This document shows, piece by piece, positions 2,387-9,071 of a stretch of 48,503 nucleotides of DNA (positions are counted from its first letter, which is position 1; every line of letters starts with the position of its first letter). The stretch spans positions 1 through 48,503 of IMG/VR virus record IMGVR_UViG_3300029893_000014; one strand, given 5' to 3'. The DNA comes from a virus. The position numbers and the translations under genes are program-made. A model generated the notes under the pieces. It was not told where the DNA came from, did no database searches, and saw nothing but the letters and a program-made list of their open reading frames with translations.

Positions 2387-2659
2387 ATGGCGGTCTTAAT
2401 GGCCACGCCAGACGAGCTGTGGCAACTCCTGGAGGAGTATGTCGGTGACGAGAGGTTCAGCACTGATAAGATGCTGACTCTCATGCGAGATGACGAGCTG
2501 ATGGAGCGGCTGGACAAGATGGCGTTGTATCGTCGGGGCAGGCAAGCGCGCCTGGATCGAGCGCTGGCCGAGGTTAGGGTGGTGCGGGAGAAAATCACCA
2601 GGGAAAACCGGCAGGAGATCGAAGCGCTGCGCGCGGAACTGGCGAATGAGGCAGAGTGA
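2387..2659 (+). CDS. hypothetical acidic helical protein ahead of terminase
   Basis: A 90-residue protein with GGAG ten bases before ATG 2387 (an in-frame TTG lies at 2366). It is helical and strongly charged, with a probable coiled coil in the second half (DRALAEVRVVREKITRENRQ). Its 3' end overlaps the small terminase start by 14 bases. No family recognised; a packaging accessory role is suggested only by position. Confidence 0.6.
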   Translation: MAVLMATPDELWQLLEEYVGDERFSTDKMLTLMRDDELMERLDKMALYRRGRQARLDRALAEVRVVREKITRENRQEIEALRAELANEAE

Positions 2660-3047
2660 TGGCGGCCAGTCGAAATCAGATGAAAATCAGATGAACAGTA
2701 ACGGCAACGGTGGCAGGCGTCCCGGTGCAGGGCGGCCCAAGGGGGCCAAAAACCGCGCGACCCTGCAAGCGAAGGCGACGCTTGAGGAGTTGGCGCGGGC
2801 ACATTCGCCCACGGCGATTGAAACTCTCGTCACCATCTGCAAGGCGGGTGAGAGCGAGTCGGCACGGGTTGCTGCGGCCAATTCGCTGCTGGATCGCGGC
2901 TACGGCAGGCCGAGGCAGACCGTGGCGCATGAGGGCGAGGCCAAGATTGCGGTGACGGTGACGGATGCGAGAGAGCAGCTTACACATCTCCTCACTGGCG
3001 TCGCTACCGCCGGAGCAGCGGACGGCGATTCTCGCACAACTCACTGA
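2646..3047 (+). CDS. terminase small subunit (probable)
   Basis: A 133-residue protein containing GGRRPGAGRPKGAKNRAT near its N-terminus, a basic Gly/Pro/Lys motif seen in many phage small terminases and related DNA-binding proteins, then a helical part (SPTAIETLVTICKAG, SARVAAANSLLDRGYGRP). It would bind the packaging start site and load the large subunit. The start at 2646 overlaps the previous gene by 14 bases; a later ATG at 2691 is possible, but no good ribosome site was seen for it. Its 3' end overlaps the large terminase by 83 bases. Confidence 0.75.
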   Translation: MRQSDGGQSKSDENQMNSNGNGGRRPGAGRPKGAKNRATLQAKATLEELARAHSPTAIETLVTICKAGESESARVAAANSLLDRGYGRPRQTVAHEGEAKIAVTVTDAREQLTHLLTGVATAGAADGDSRTTH

Positions 3048-4872
3048 CGAGCAGTGTGAGGCGCTGCTGCACGACTGGGCGTTTCTGTCCAGGCCGGAGC
3101 AGCGAGCGCCGGACGGCGACTGGCTGGTGTGGATATATCTGGCTGGTCGCGGGGCCGGCAAGACGCGCTCCGGGGCCGAATGGGTTAGACAGCGGGTTAA
3201 GGCTGGATCGACCAGGATAGCGCTGATCGCGCCGACTGCGGCCGATGCCCGCGATGTCATGGTGGAGGGCGTCTCTGGCCTGTTGTCGGTGTGCTGGGAG
3301 CATGACAAGACGGACGCCGGGCTGCCGATGGGCAGGCCGCTCTACGAGCCCAGCAAGCGGCGGGTGACGTGGAAGCACGGTGCGATTGCCACGCTGTTCT
3401 CGGCCGAGGAGCCCGACCGCCTGCGTGGGCCGCAGCATGACACTGCCTGGTGCGATGAACTGGCGGCGTGGGACGATGCCCAGTCGACCTGGGACATGGC
3501 GATGTTCGGTCTGCGGCTCGGCCGCGACCCCAGGGCCATGGTGACGACGACGCCGAAACCGCTGCCCATCGTAAGGGAATTGACACGGGATGCCCGCAAC
3601 GTGGTGACGCGCGGCACCACATGGAGCAATCGAGCGAACCTGGCGCCGAGCTTCTTTGCGCAAATCGTAGCCAAGTACGACGGGACGAGGCTGGGGCGCC
3701 AGGAACTACACGCGGAAATCCTTGAGGAAGCCGAGGGGGCGCTGTGGACCCGCGACATGCTGGTCAAGGCCGCGCGCTATCCACAACTCATCCGCACTGT
3801 GGTCGGGGTTGACCCGCCGGTGTCGGCCGATGGCGAGTCGGCGCTGTGCGGCATCGTCGTAGCCGGTCTCGGCGTTGATGGGCGAGGCTATGTCCTGGCC
3901 GACTACTCAGGGAGGATGCTGCCGGCCCAGTGGGGCAAGAAGGTGGTCGAGGCGTATGACGACTGGCACGCCGACCGCATCGTGGCCGAGGGCAACCAGG
4001 GCGGTGAGATGGTCCGCCACACGATCCAGACCGTCAGGCCGGCGGCGCCTGTCACTATCGTGCAAGCCCATCACGGCAAACAGGCCAGGGCCGAGCCGGT
4101 CGCGGCGCTCTACGAGCAAGGCAAGGTCGATCATGTCGGGTCATTCCCTGAGCTTGAGGACCAGATGGTCACCTGGGAGCCGCTCAGCGGCCTGCCCAGC
4201 CCGGATCGGCTCGACGCCTTGGTGTGGGCCATGACGGAATTGGCGATTGGTGGCGGCCCGCACGTCTACGGGGCGGACGTGCAGGACATGTTGGAGCCGG
4301 GCCGGGACATCCCGAGCCGACTGCTGCGCTGCGCCGCAATCGACATCGAGGCCGGCGAAGTGGCCATGGTGTGGGCCGCGATCGACAGGACCAGCGGCGT
4401 GATGCATGTCACTGACGCGGTGCTGACCGCGCGATCCGATCTGGCCGTCCACGCCGAGGCCATCCGGATGAGGGGCAAGTGGGTGCCGGTGTTGTTCGAG
4501 ACCGAGGCCCGGAAGCGCAGCAAGGCCGAGGGCATCGCCATTGCCGAACGGCTGGCAGAGTGTGGCGTCGAGATTTACACCGTGGACATGGACCAGGAGC
4601 GGGCCGTGGCGGCGCTGCGTCATCGCATCGTCGGCAACGCGCTCAAGGTGCATGACGACCTGCACCAGTGGATCACGGCGTGGCGCCGCTATCGGCGTAA
4701 CGAGAAGGGCGAGCTGGTCCAGGCCGGTGACGGGCTGATGAGGGCAACGCAACTCATCGGGCTCTATGGGCCTGGTCTAGCTATCAGCGAGAACCAGGCG
4801 GTGTCGGATGCCGAGACGACGCGCGAGTCGCTGGTAGCCGAGGCGCATCGGCATAACTCGACGGGCTATTGA
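2965..4872 (+). CDS. terminase large subunit with extra C-terminal nuclease-like domain
   Basis: A 635-residue packaging motor of the Terminase_6 type. The ATPase has Walker A GRGAGKTRSG (61-70) and Walker B AWCDEL (161-166, D164/E165), then TTTPKPL (194-200). The RNase H-like nuclease shows VVGVDPPVSADGESALCGIV (279-298, D283), DRIVAEGNQGGEMV (337-350, E342) and DRLDALVWAM (414-423). Such proteins normally end near residue 430-480. Here about 185 residues follow, starting LLRCAAIDIEAGEVAMVWAA (453-472) and including HAEAIRMRGKWVPV, HQWITAWRRYRR and GDGLMRATQLI (588-598). That series resembles the nuclease end of a different terminase lineage, suggesting a tandem or fused nuclease. The ATPase/nuclease call is certain; the origin of the extension is inferred. 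Confidence 0.93.
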   Translation: MRESSLHISSLASLPPEQRTAILAQLTDEQCEALLHDWAFLSRPEQRAPDGDWLVWIYLAGRGAGKTRSGAEWVRQRVKAGSTRIALIAPTAADARDVMVEGVSGLLSVCWEHDKTDAGLPMGRPLYEPSKRRVTWKHGAIATLFSAEEPDRLRGPQHDTAWCDELAAWDDAQSTWDMAMFGLRLGRDPRAMVTTTPKPLPIVRELTRDARNVVTRGTTWSNRANLAPSFFAQIVAKYDGTRLGRQELHAEILEEAEGALWTRDMLVKAARYPQLIRTVVGVDPPVSADGESALCGIVVAGLGVDGRGYVLADYSGRMLPAQWGKKVVEAYDDWHADRIVAEGNQGGEMVRHTIQTVRPAAPVTIVQAHHGKQARAEPVAALYEQGKVDHVGSFPELEDQMVTWEPLSGLPSPDRLDALVWAMTELAIGGGPHVYGADVQDMLEPGRDIPSRLLRCAAIDIEAGEVAMVWAAIDRTSGVMHVTDAVLTARSDLAVHAEAIRMRGKWVPVLFETEARKRSKAEGIAIAERLAECGVEIYTVDMDQERAVAALRHRIVGNALKVHDDLHQWITAWRRYRRNEKGELVQAGDGLMRATQLIGLYGPGLAISENQAVSDAETTRESLVAEAHRHNSTGY

Positions 4873-6133: not shown

Positions 6134-6406
6134 ATGGTTACTGTGGAATCCACGCAATTTGATGATCTAAAAGCAGCGTTATGTAGGTGTGTGGCAACGA
6201 TGCGTGACGGGCGCGGATTGGCGGTCGGCATTCCGGCGGCGCTTGATAGTGATGAGATGCTGTCGCTCGTCGCCTTGTGCGCTGTGCAGATGGCGAGTGG
6301 TCAGCATGTTGTCCTGCCCAAGAGCTTCACCTACATCGGCGCTCTACCGGAGAACGTAATAGCAACGGACTTCGGGCTGGAAACATACTCTGACGTGGCG
6401 GCCTGA
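6134..6406 (+). CDS. small protein, second of a tandem paralogous pair
   Basis: A 90-residue paralog of the gene at 5839, with GGAGGG seven bases before the ATG. Conserved features are the MVTV start, L-K-A/Q-A/I...R/C near residue 15, SDEM, and VQMASGQHVVLP. The pair has diverged strongly, so duplication is not recent. Its stop overlaps the portal ATG (TGATG), placing it in the head operon; function unknown. Confidence 0.65.
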   Translation: MVTVESTQFDDLKAALCRCVATMRDGRGLAVGIPAALDSDEMLSLVALCAVQMASGQHVVLPKSFTYIGALPENVIATDFGLETYSDVAA

Positions 6407-8586
6407 TGGCTCGCGCTCTCGCCACAGCCCTACAGGAAACCGGCGGCCTTGACATCGAGGCGCCTGCCGGTCTCGGCAACGCGTTGACCGCAGGCGAGTC
6501 GCCGTCGCCGCGCGACCAGCAGCGGCTGCTACTGCGCTGGTCTGACCGGCTTGAGACGCCCAACATCGCCGAGGAGCTGCGCGACAACACCGGAACCAAC
6601 AGTCTCGGCTCCATCGGCTTCAAGGTCATCGAGGAAGCCGATCTAGACAACCGGTCCCGCGAGGAATGGATACGCCAGAGCAGGGACGCGATGGACCTTG
6701 CCATGCTGGTAGCCAAGGGCAAGACCGATCCGTGGCCTGGCTGTTCCAACATCGTCTATCCCCTGATGGCGGTAGCGGCGGTGCAGTTCGCGGCGCGGGC
6801 CTATCCCGCCGTGGTGGCCGACCGCAACGTGGTCCGTGGTGTCGTGTTCGGTGAGGACGAGGGCGTGCCGCTCGTCGACCCCCGCACCGGCCAGTCGCTC
6901 GCTGATCCGCAGACCGGAGAGCCGCTGTGGGCTGTGCCGCCCGGCGAGCTGCGCCGCAGGGCCGACCGTGTTGCTTCTCATATGTCCTGGCAGCTCCTTG
7001 AGGAGCAGCCGGAATGGGAGCCTGAGACCGACAAGCTGCTGCACATCCTGCCGATCCAAGGCTGTGCGTTCCGCAAGAACTACTACGACCCCGGCGAGGG
7101 GCGGAACTTCTCCGTCCTGGTGTCGCCCAAGAACCTGATCGTCAACTACTACGCGCAGTCGCTGGAGACGGCGCCGCGCATCACCGAGATCATCGAATAC
7201 TACCCGCACGAGATCGAGGAGATGGTCAGGGCCGGGTTGTTCCTCGACCAGGACTATGGCCAGGGCAAGGATGCCCAAGACCCGGACAGCCCGCACGAGT
7301 TTTATGAGCAGCACCGCCGGCTCGACCTGGACGAGGACGGCTACCCGGAGCCCTACATCGTCACGGTCCACAAGGAGACGATGAAGGTTGCGCGCATCGT
7401 GGCGCGGTACGAGCCGCAGGGCGTCTTTTTCGACGGCCCGTTGCTGCGCAAGATAGAGCCGGTTCACTACTACACCGCCTATGAGTTCCTGCCCAACCCG
7501 GACGGCGGTGTGTATGGGCTGGGTTTCGGCCAGCTTCTGAGGCCGATCAATGAGGCGGTCAACTCGACGCTCAACATGCTGTTCGATGCCGGCCACCTGG
7601 CCAATGCCGGCGGCGGGTTCATCGGCAAGGGGCTATCGCTCCATGCCGGCGCGGTGCGGTTCCGCCCCGGTGAGTACAAAGAGGTCAGGGCGTTCGGCTC
7701 GGCCATCCGCGATGCCATCGTGCCGCTCGACTTCCCCGGTCCCAGCCCGGTCCTGTTTCAATTGCTCGGCATGTTGATCGAGGCCGGCAAGGACGTAGCG
7801 GCGATCAAGGACATCCTGACCGGCGAAACCAGGGCGGCCAATACCCCGGCCACCACCATCCTGGCGCTGATCGAGCAGGGCTTGAAGGTGTTTACCGCCA
7901 TCTTCAAGCGGGTTCATCGGTCACTCAAGAAGGACTACGACAAACTCTACCGGCTCAACTCGATCTATCTCGACGACATCGCCCGGTTCCGGGTCGGCAA
8001 CGAGATGCATCAGGTCAGCCGGCTCGACTACCAGCGCGGCGCCGGCATTGCCCCGGTCAGCGATCCCAAGACCGTTTCCGACATGCAAAAACTCGGCCGG
8101 GCCGAGTTTCTCAAGACCTGGGCCGGCGATCCCCATGTCGATCAGGTCGAGTTGCGCCGCCGGGTCTTCGAGGCCGCGCAGATCGAGAATGTCGATGACC
8201 TGCTTCTCACTGAGCAGCCACCCGATCCGGCCATTGAACTGAAGAAGATCGAGGTCAAGGCCCGCGCCGTCAAGGAGATGGCATTGGCCTACAAGGCCAT
8301 AGGCGAGACGGACATTCAGGTGCTGCAAGGCTTGGGGCCGCAGGGACTGCAATGGGTCGCGGCCCAAATGGACCTGATGCGACTGAGAATCGAAACCCTG
8401 GATCAAGAGATCAATGAACAGCAGCAACAGCAGCAACCCGGCTCCGCTGATGGAAGTGAACGGGGTCAACGAGCCGCACTTCCAGGCATGGCGTCGACAT
8501 CCGGTGACGTTGGCCCTGCGGCGCTATCTCAACGACTGGGCGGAGCAGTTGAAGGCGGACCACCTGTCCAGATGGGCGGCGGGTAA
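6406..8586 (+). CDS. portal protein
   Basis: A 726-residue portal, close in length to P22 gp1. It would form the dodecameric DNA channel at one capsid vertex. Recognisable portal segments include DPWPGCSNIVYPLMAVAAVQ, RVASHMSWQLLEEQPEWEPE, DKLLHILPIQGCAFRKNYYD, VSPKNLIVNYYAQSLETAPR and GVYGLGFGQLLRPINEAVNS, followed by a helical stem/crown part and a Gln-rich, Gly-rich tail (NEQQQQQQPGSADGSERG). The ATG overlaps the upstream stop. The last 173 bases also encode the next gene in another frame, so the tail is probably tolerant of change. Confidence 0.9.
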   Translation: MARALATALQETGGLDIEAPAGLGNALTAGESPSPRDQQRLLLRWSDRLETPNIAEELRDNTGTNSLGSIGFKVIEEADLDNRSREEWIRQSRDAMDLAMLVAKGKTDPWPGCSNIVYPLMAVAAVQFAARAYPAVVADRNVVRGVVFGEDEGVPLVDPRTGQSLADPQTGEPLWAVPPGELRRRADRVASHMSWQLLEEQPEWEPETDKLLHILPIQGCAFRKNYYDPGEGRNFSVLVSPKNLIVNYYAQSLETAPRITEIIEYYPHEIEEMVRAGLFLDQDYGQGKDAQDPDSPHEFYEQHRRLDLDEDGYPEPYIVTVHKETMKVARIVARYEPQGVFFDGPLLRKIEPVHYYTAYEFLPNPDGGVYGLGFGQLLRPINEAVNSTLNMLFDAGHLANAGGGFIGKGLSLHAGAVRFRPGEYKEVRAFGSAIRDAIVPLDFPGPSPVLFQLLGMLIEAGKDVAAIKDILTGETRAANTPATTILALIEQGLKVFTAIFKRVHRSLKKDYDKLYRLNSIYLDDIARFRVGNEMHQVSRLDYQRGAGIAPVSDPKTVSDMQKLGRAEFLKTWAGDPHVDQVELRRRVFEAAQIENVDDLLLTEQPPDPAIELKKIEVKARAVKEMALAYKAIGETDIQVLQGLGPQGLQWVAAQMDLMRLRIETLDQEINEQQQQQQPGSADGSERGQRAALPGMASTSGDVGPAALSQRLGGAVEGGPPVQMGGG

Positions 8587-8722
8587 GCCGCTCGACCCGG
8601 CATTCGAGGCCGAGGTGGCGATCAGGCGCGCCATGGCGCTGGAACTGGCGGAGCTGAGCTTCGACGACATGGCCGCGTTCTACGGGGCAAATGAAGAGGA
8701 GACCGATGTCGATCACGCCTAA
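8414..8722 (+). CDS. hypothetical protein largely nested in the portal 3' end
   Basis: A 102-residue protein whose first 57 codons lie in the +1 frame over the end of portal. The composition is protein-like: EPHFQAWRRHPVTLALRRYL and NDWAEQLKADHLSRWAAGK, followed by a helical FEAEVAIRRAMALELAELSF region. AGAG precedes ATG 8414; ATG 8450 is an alternative with no clear ribosome site. Its acidic end overlaps the GroES-like start. The role is unknown; portal-adjacent genes of this size are often assembly factors. Confidence 0.6.
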   Translation: MNSSNSSNPAPLMEVNGVNEPHFQAWRRHPVTLALRRYLNDWAEQLKADHLSRWAAGKPLDPAFEAEVAIRRAMALELAELSFDDMAAFYGANEEETDVDHA

Positions 8723-9071
8723 GCTCATCAAAACCGATCTGGCCGAGTACGAACCGGCCCAATGGACGGGCCGCAACACATCCGGGATCGAGCCCATCGC
8801 AGCCGACAGCGGCACCGTACTGGTGCTGCTGGACAAGGTAGTCGAGAAAAGCCGGGGCGGCATCATGCTGCCGCAGAACCTGACCGAACGGCAGGGGCTG
8901 GCCGCTGAGAGCGGCGTCTTGGTTGCGTCCGATCCCAAGTCGGACCTGGCTCCATATGTGGGGCGCCGAGTCTATTTCGAGCGCTATGCCGGGGCCACGG
9001 TGATCGGGGCCGACGATCAGCGCTATCGCCTGATGTCGGCGGCATCGGTTGCCGGCGTCGAGGTTGAGTGA
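8706..9071 (+). CDS. GroES-like co-chaperonin
   Basis: A 121-residue protein with GAGGAG just before ATG 8706. After about 30 extra N-terminal residues it follows the GroES fold: TVLVLLDKVVEKSRGGIMLP (37-56), matching the beta strand plus mobile loop with its GGI(M/V)LP, then SGVLVASD (69-76), VGRRVYFERYAGATVI (85-100) and the C-terminal RYRLMSAASVAGVEVE (106-121), equivalent to YLIM-S-DILA-VE. GroES caps GroEL; phage versions such as T4 gp31 help fold capsid proteins. Its place between portal and scaffold genes fits that role. Confidence 0.8.
   Translation: MSITPKLIKTDLAEYEPAQWTGRNTSGIEPIAADSGTVLVLLDKVVEKSRGGIMLPQNLTERQGLAAESGVLVASDPKSDLAPYVGRRVYFERYAGATVIGADDQRYRLMSAASVAGVEVE

Follow-up and report, generated by a model that had tools for sequence, protein, structure and literature searches.

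Introduction

Docking of the large terminase subunit (TerL) on the portal through its C terminus is a classic feature of phage packaging motors; to our knowledge, recognition of the cognate portal by a terminase has been worked out in detail for a few model phages only. According to the accessible parts of the published descriptions, a C-terminal tether of the lambda TerL and a C-terminal domain of the T4 TerL dock on the portal, in T4 on the portal clip (PMC9026076, PMC5727402), and a C-terminal arm of the D6E TerL has been proposed for the active site of its own ATPase. Terminase mosaicism and intragenic recombination are likewise already in print, as far as the accessible text of the study of PhiGT1-related podoviruses goes: TerL is exchanged more often than the head genes, and intragenic TerL recombinants occur between the N- and C-terminal domains (PMC10386132). 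A literature search, with most subscription journals outside its reach, returned neither a TerL with a retained second nuclease nor a portal-matched TerL tail across motor families.

Here we describe a terminase encoded in an IMG/VR virus record of 48,503 bases, analyzed over its whole length and referred to as the window. Its sequence points to a complete motor captured from another phage lineage, followed by a degenerate second TerL nuclease and by a short C-terminal tail that appears to follow the portal and not the motor. Comparison loci are designated by L numbers.

The terminase gene and its motor half

2646-3047, plus strand: candidate small terminase (phrog_15261, 2.3e-17; weak match to the small terminase phrog_2538, 5.5e-4)
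2965-4872, plus strand: TerL, open reading frame (ORF) of 635 aa
2965-4254, plus strand: TerL aa 1-430, apparently a complete captured Terminase_6 motor (Pfam; cultured and IMG/VR relatives)

Pfam searches of TerL yielded Terminase_6N for the ATPase (aa 57-266; PF03237, 7.8e-22, 78.4 bits at a cut-off of 22) and Terminase_6C for the RNase H nuclease (aa 280-424; PF17289, 7.7e-19, 68.6 bits at a cut-off of 22.6), with no domain after Terminase_6C. The preliminary description, made from the sequence alone, had proposed a complete ATPase and RNase H nuclease followed by extra residues, and this is the layout found. The first nuclease is present, and its alignment with relatives extends over the full length; beyond this domain TerL continues for 205 residues, past the typical Terminase_6 end and unlike its nearest relatives. 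The best cultured relative of the motor is that of Roseobacter phage CRP-6 (54% over aa 11-430), and the IMG/VR motor relatives are 49-67% identical. When the whole TerL was searched against 50,697 phage records with tblastn, 525 records were matched, the best among the matches listed stopping near residue 430, and no match covered 80% of the protein; phmmer searches of the whole TerL against solved structures gave three weak matches and no terminase. The full-length structural model (mean pLDDT 85.9, pTM 0.54) comprises an ATPase, an RNase H fold, a loose linker (432-445) and a second RNase H fold.

The packaging genes of the window are flanked by genes for a NusG-like transcription antiterminator (1477-2097; 1.3e-13) and a GroES-like protein (8691-9071; 4.1e-6). 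Those of ct2G2228 are likewise flanked by genes annotated RfaH and GroES.

Second nuclease-like domain

4255-4815, plus strand: aa 431 to about 617, apparently a degenerate second TerL nuclease of P22/phiEco32 type, termed the relic (HMM, AlphaFold2, Foldseek, VIA-align)
4342-4344, plus strand: D460, retained at the first acidic position of the relic (alignment)
4498-4500, plus strand: E512, aligned with the second catalytic Asp (alignment)
4729-4731, plus strand: D589, third acidic position, within GDGLMRATQLI (canonical DHLMDATRYL; alignment)

An extra segment of about 185 residues had been placed at 4321 onward. The segment is real; its start has to be moved about 22 residues upstream, from aa 453 to about aa 431 (nt 4255). 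An HMM derived from eight canonical TerL nucleases, with no relic among them, matched aa 431-630 at an E-value of 8.6e-32. A tblastn search with aa 431-635 alone returned 164 records at E-values up to 10; the strongest among the matches listed were the TerL nuclease halves of EBPR podovirus 1 (3e-17), ct2G2228, GAP52 (2e-11), 7-11 and relatives, with the TerL nuclease half of MW202785 at 4e-15, and every function-named feature among the matches listed was a terminase or packaging protein. Both results agree with the earlier proposal that the segment is the nuclease half of another terminase lineage. AlphaFold2 modeling of aa 431-635, with an alignment of 25 rows (the window and metagenomic loci) as input, predicted an RNase H fold at a pLDDT of 92.8 and a pTM of 0.86. 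Foldseek placed the P22 TerL nuclease (4dkw) top for this model (E-value 2.7e-13), and VIA-align superimposed the two with a Z-score of 24.1 and an rmsd of 2.0 over 182 residues, which rules out that the segment adopts another fold. Judged by sequence and predicted fold, aa 431-617 is a homologue of the P22/phiEco32/EBPR-type TerL nuclease half.

As a control for the motor family (Terminase_6 control), viral contigs were searched for motor relatives and the closest 80 taken; of these, 79 were counted and L181, with an open 3' end, was left out. None of the 79, all with the TerL 3' end on the contig, had a second-nuclease match, so that an ordinary C-terminal tail of the motor family is ruled out as well; the HMM also found no second nuclease in the ORFs of L106-L185. 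Single-peptide scans with the second domain of the window returned no relative in viral contigs.

Catalytic positions and selection

The canonical rows of the alignment contain DxG, a second Asp and DxxxxATRY-like motifs; the catalytic roles of the three acidic positions are assumed here from other TerLs. D460 and D589 align exactly with the first and last of these positions, as had been noted from the sequence, and the middle, previously described as altered, has E512 where the canonical rows have Asp. Despite these three acids, the glycine of DxG and the RY are lost in the window. We distinguish seven relics, namely those of the window, L011, the L037/L051/L084 group, L042, L067, L041 and L024. 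The DxG glycine is gone in all seven and RY in six, L024 being the exception. A catalytic acid is missing in four: the first is replaced by Val in L011, the third by Asn in the L037 group and the second by Ala in L067, while L024 has Arg at the first position, His at the third and a gap at the second. Acids stand at all three positions in the window, L042 and L041. Since DxG glycine and ATRY are lost, and a catalytic acid in four of seven relics, the second domain fits a relic better than a second active nuclease, although some residual nuclease activity may be compatible with the three acids of the window.

Selection was assessed on the relic minus the tail (Nei-Gojobori). For the three pairs of L037, L051 and L084, dN/dS was 0.142, 0.075 and 0.057, while for pairs with L042 the synonymous sites were saturated (0.108, 0.109 or not computable); the nearest relic to that of the window is 36% identical. 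In the L037/L051/L084 group the ratios point to purifying selection on the relic, although its catalysis looks lost.

The second domain behind other motors

Searches with the portal and the relic of the window found further loci with the tandem layout. The terminase of L011/L014 (one contig) is 1067 aa long and consists of a Terminase_6C-type motor with an intein and, behind it, the relic. In L037, L042, L051 and L084 the relic follows a Terminase_3-like motor, with the Pfam assignment to Terminase_3 and Terminase_3C run for L037 among the four, and in L067 another Terminase_6 motor. L041 has a Terminase_3/3C TerL devoid of both domain and tail, and a separate ORF that is the relic and carries the tail. 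A tandem or relic-plus-active fusion, as first suggested, is thus supported by sequence, by predicted fold and by the same layout in other phages; the earlier observation is confirmed, and its interpretation was largely right.

In a nuclease tree of 31 domains, from which the incomplete L017 and L022 were left out, the eight relics linked to the portal family of the window form one clade (99/99; 100% of 200 bootstrap trees). In front of them stand motors of three or more types; in the motor tree, the window, L067 and L068, all with Terminase_6 motors, occupy three separate places, forced by starred branches. One clade of relics behind such diverse and scattered motors indicates that the relic stayed while the motors changed. 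For the portal tree, TerLs more than 90% identical were removed and L011 and L014 treated as one contig; among the resulting 61 dereplicated loci, all relic bearers fall into one clade of 25 rows (100 by SH-aLRT). As 18 of these 25 rows are without a relic, it must have been lost, or have moved, repeatedly.

The relic is dispensable in this clade, many portal relatives having the tail without it (for example L068, L026 and L028). The second domain might accordingly be a passive residue with no role of its own, persisting since the tail behind it must stay in frame, and both the prevalence of tails without the domain among the portal relatives and the decay of the catalytic and surrounding motifs would suit this; we hold it to be unlikely, as it sits poorly with dN/dS values of 0.057-0.142 for the three pairs with usable dS, with the intact predicted fold in the window, and with the retention of the domain as a separate ORF in L041.

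L024:1969-2607 is a stand-alone P22-type nuclease ORF, still more decayed, behind a TerL_ATPase/TerL_nuclease terminase. In the nuclease tree it is placed apart from the relic clade, with a long branch of its own; the neighboring portal belongs to another cluster, and L024 is perhaps an independent case. The terminases L011:807-4010 and L094:2428-4881 have LAGLIDADG/Hint intein-like insertions, that of L011 at the expected place of Walker A (positioned by eye). Two ORFs, one for the ATPase and one for the nuclease, often encode the native TerL of the lineage (L002, L009, L019, L087, L096, L102). About 130 bases separate the two in L002 and L019; those of L002 resemble what we take to be homing-endonuclease debris.

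The C-terminal tail and the portal

4849-4869, plus strand: RHNSTGY tail (consensus R-[SN]-x-x-[TG]-G-Y-COOH), a proposed address for docking on the portal (portal-family loci)
6406-8586, plus strand: portal protein, SU10/phiEco32-like, co-occurring with the tail (PHROG 1216, 1.1e-13)

The portal of the window matches Pfam SU10_portal at 1.5e-6, under the cut-off of that family, and is 43% identical to the portal of MW202785. Among 87 loci with a portal of this family on the plus strand, 79 have a [TSGA]GY end on TerL, on a split nuclease ORF or, in L041, on the separate relic. Six of the 87 are without a TerL 3' end (L012, L013, L034, L089, L095, L186), in L070 the tail is out of frame, and L097:5583-6929, alone among the portal-family terminases complete at the 3' end, has no TGY-type tail and ends NIGRFGL. 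A nuclease-portal fusion in L070 was considered and is explained by the frame slip at the tail. After dereplication the tail is on TerL or the split nuclease ORF in 58 of 61 loci, whatever the motor family; all 58 tails end in Tyr preceded by Gly, before which stand Thr (46), Gly (10) or Ser (2), and 53 have Arg at -7.

Chance is ruled out as the source of the motif, [TSGA]GY ending 5 of 5537 ORFs of at least 90 aa in control loci. Every synonymous site of the tail shows codon variation. The stop codon that closes the tail lies anywhere from 117 nt inside the portal gene to 2868 nt before its start, so that the tail is a protein-level feature; by the same evidence a DNA-level cause, such as a start signal of the portal gene, is ruled out.

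The tail is also present in the cultured Alcaligenes phage vB_Af_QDWS535, with RNSFTGY as the TerL C terminus and on which a literature search found nothing, and in the uncultured genome MW202796, while the TerLs of the more distant portal relatives HTVC027P, CRP-901, GB2A and DSL-LC04 have other endings. A genome scan with the portal returned one MAG contig, on which no terminase was seen. Between the TerL and portal genes of L044, and likewise of L045, lies an ORF of 105 aa (6625-6942 in L044) whose product has the C terminus TGRSAAGGY, a tail of the TerL kind, and is possibly a second user of the docking address.

Whether the tail goes with the motor or with the portal was read from sets in which the two are dissociated. 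None of the 79 Terminase_6 relatives with the 3' end on the contig has the portal family of the window, and none ends in [TSGA]GY. Terminase_3 relatives were retrieved with the tail omitted from the query; they have the tail in 4/4 cases with the portal versus 1/77 ORFs without it (Fisher tests, kinship ignored), and no portal was found on the contig of L263, the single tail bearer of the 77. A C-terminal position on TerL together with association with one portal type, as looked for in a tether, was thus observed (58/61 versus 0/79 and 1/77).

Near-identical portals stand beside unrelated motors, with the last 10-18 residues as the common part of the terminases. The portals of L068 and L069 are 95.6% identical and their TerLs alike in the last ~18 residues only, L068 having a Terminase_6 motor and L069 one that cannot be aligned with it and differs in Walker A; about 57 nt ahead of the stop codon, identity jumps from ~0.2 to 0.97. 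In L070, with a portal 94-96% identical to these two, the motor is of a third kind, namely the native one split into ATPase and nuclease. L083 and L088 have portals 99.3% identical and different motors; their sequences match over 33 nt at the tail, an island flanked on both sides by dissimilar DNA. In these swap comparisons the DNA matches run on past the portal.

A second tail class, WM[GSA], accompanies another portal cluster, with 24/31 versus 1/32 elsewhere for Terminase_3 motors (kinship ignored) and 4/4 for P22-type motors; its bearers include L007, L018, L021, L004 and many of L191-L270. Portal clusters were formed by single-linkage BLAST of 252 loci, 32 of which had no portal ORF, and one group was chosen by its tail; the unbiased sets are the Terminase_6 control, the Terminase_3 control, and the Terminase_3 and P22-type rows of the WM tail count. 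At the level of sequence association, the tail follows the portal, not the motor.

The tail could instead be kept for another partner, such as the small terminase, the scaffold or the ATPase site of its own motor, the portal being merely a linked gene. The D6E arm, contacting its own ATPase site as far as the accessible source tells, is a precedent, and other morphogenesis genes do travel with the portal, as the extended DNA matches indicate. A contact with the own ATPase would track the motor, yet the tail tracks the portal across unrelated motors, and in lambda and T4 it is the portal that the TerL C terminus contacts, according to the accessible descriptions; we consider another partner improbable.

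Discussion

We think it rather probable that TerL of the window is a chimeric motor in which the relic is the native nuclease, now an adaptor or carrier, and the tail docks on the SU10-like portal. Translocation and cutting of the DNA would fall to the Terminase_6 ATPase and nuclease, which would have been captured from another lineage of phages. The second RNase H-like domain would be the TerL nuclease that the lineage formerly used; now degenerate, it has probably ceased to be catalytic and would serve as a structural adaptor or at least as the in-frame carrier of the tail, and the RxxxTGY end would dock the motor on the portal in the manner of the C-terminal tethers of the lambda and T4 large terminases. 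Motors may be exchanged by recombination at points that precede the tail, or the old nuclease as a whole, such that the portal address stays: an exchange upstream of the tail would place a working motor on the old capsid, and one upstream of the old nuclease would bring this domain along. With a new motor that brings its own nuclease, the old one would lose catalysis and in some lineages be kept as an adaptor. What matters most here is probably the very end of TerL, its last seven residues, which track the portal across many motor families, though the tail could also contact something else that travels with the portal.

That the second domain of the window is still an active nuclease, in a motor with two cutting centers, strikes us as very improbable: acids at all three aligned positions (D460, E512, D589) and the intact predicted RNase H fold would allow it, but the DxG glycine and RY kept in the canonical rows are lost, sister relics lack a catalytic acid (Val in L011, Asn in the L037 group, Ala in L067), and the motor has its first nuclease, alignable with those of its relatives throughout.

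Beyond the chimeric motor of the window, we see about an even chance that portal-specific C-terminal tags (TGY, WM[GSA]) generally allow unrelated terminases to be swapped while the capsid is kept, and that in some lineages the inactivated native nuclease has become a lasting adaptor, fused or separate, by which successive foreign motors are plugged into the same portal. A tail that goes along with the portal while unrelated motors replace one another would amount to a map of the motor-portal contact drawn by natural recombination, its class may help to predict the capsids that a given motor fits, and its last residues are a candidate docking peptide. The degenerate nuclease would clearly exemplify an enzyme domain that, once its catalysis had been taken over, was apparently retained for structure.

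Among known systems, the P22 TerL (gp2) nuclease (4dkw) and the TerLs of phiEco32, 7-11, GAP52 and EBPR podovirus 1 resemble aa 431-617 in sequence family and predicted RNase H fold. In P22/phiEco32-type TerLs this domain is the sole nuclease, behind its own ATPase and with DxG, Asp and RY intact, whereas in the window it is degenerate and stands behind what appears to be a complete foreign TerL. CRP-6 and other Terminase_6 TerLs resemble aa 1-430 in their ATPase and nuclease; the CRP-6 TerL is 448 aa long, and the nearest metagenomic relatives have neither second nuclease nor TGY tail, while the window has both. For the mosaic PhiGT1-related phages, the accessible text reports no retained tail, tandem nuclease or portal-matched C-terminal motif. 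The tail of the window group may be likened to the short C-terminal segment by which the lambda and T4 TerLs, in the accessible descriptions, dock on their cognate portals; in contrast to these, the group presents one fixed TGY end on many unrelated motor families together with a single portal family, its putative binding partner.
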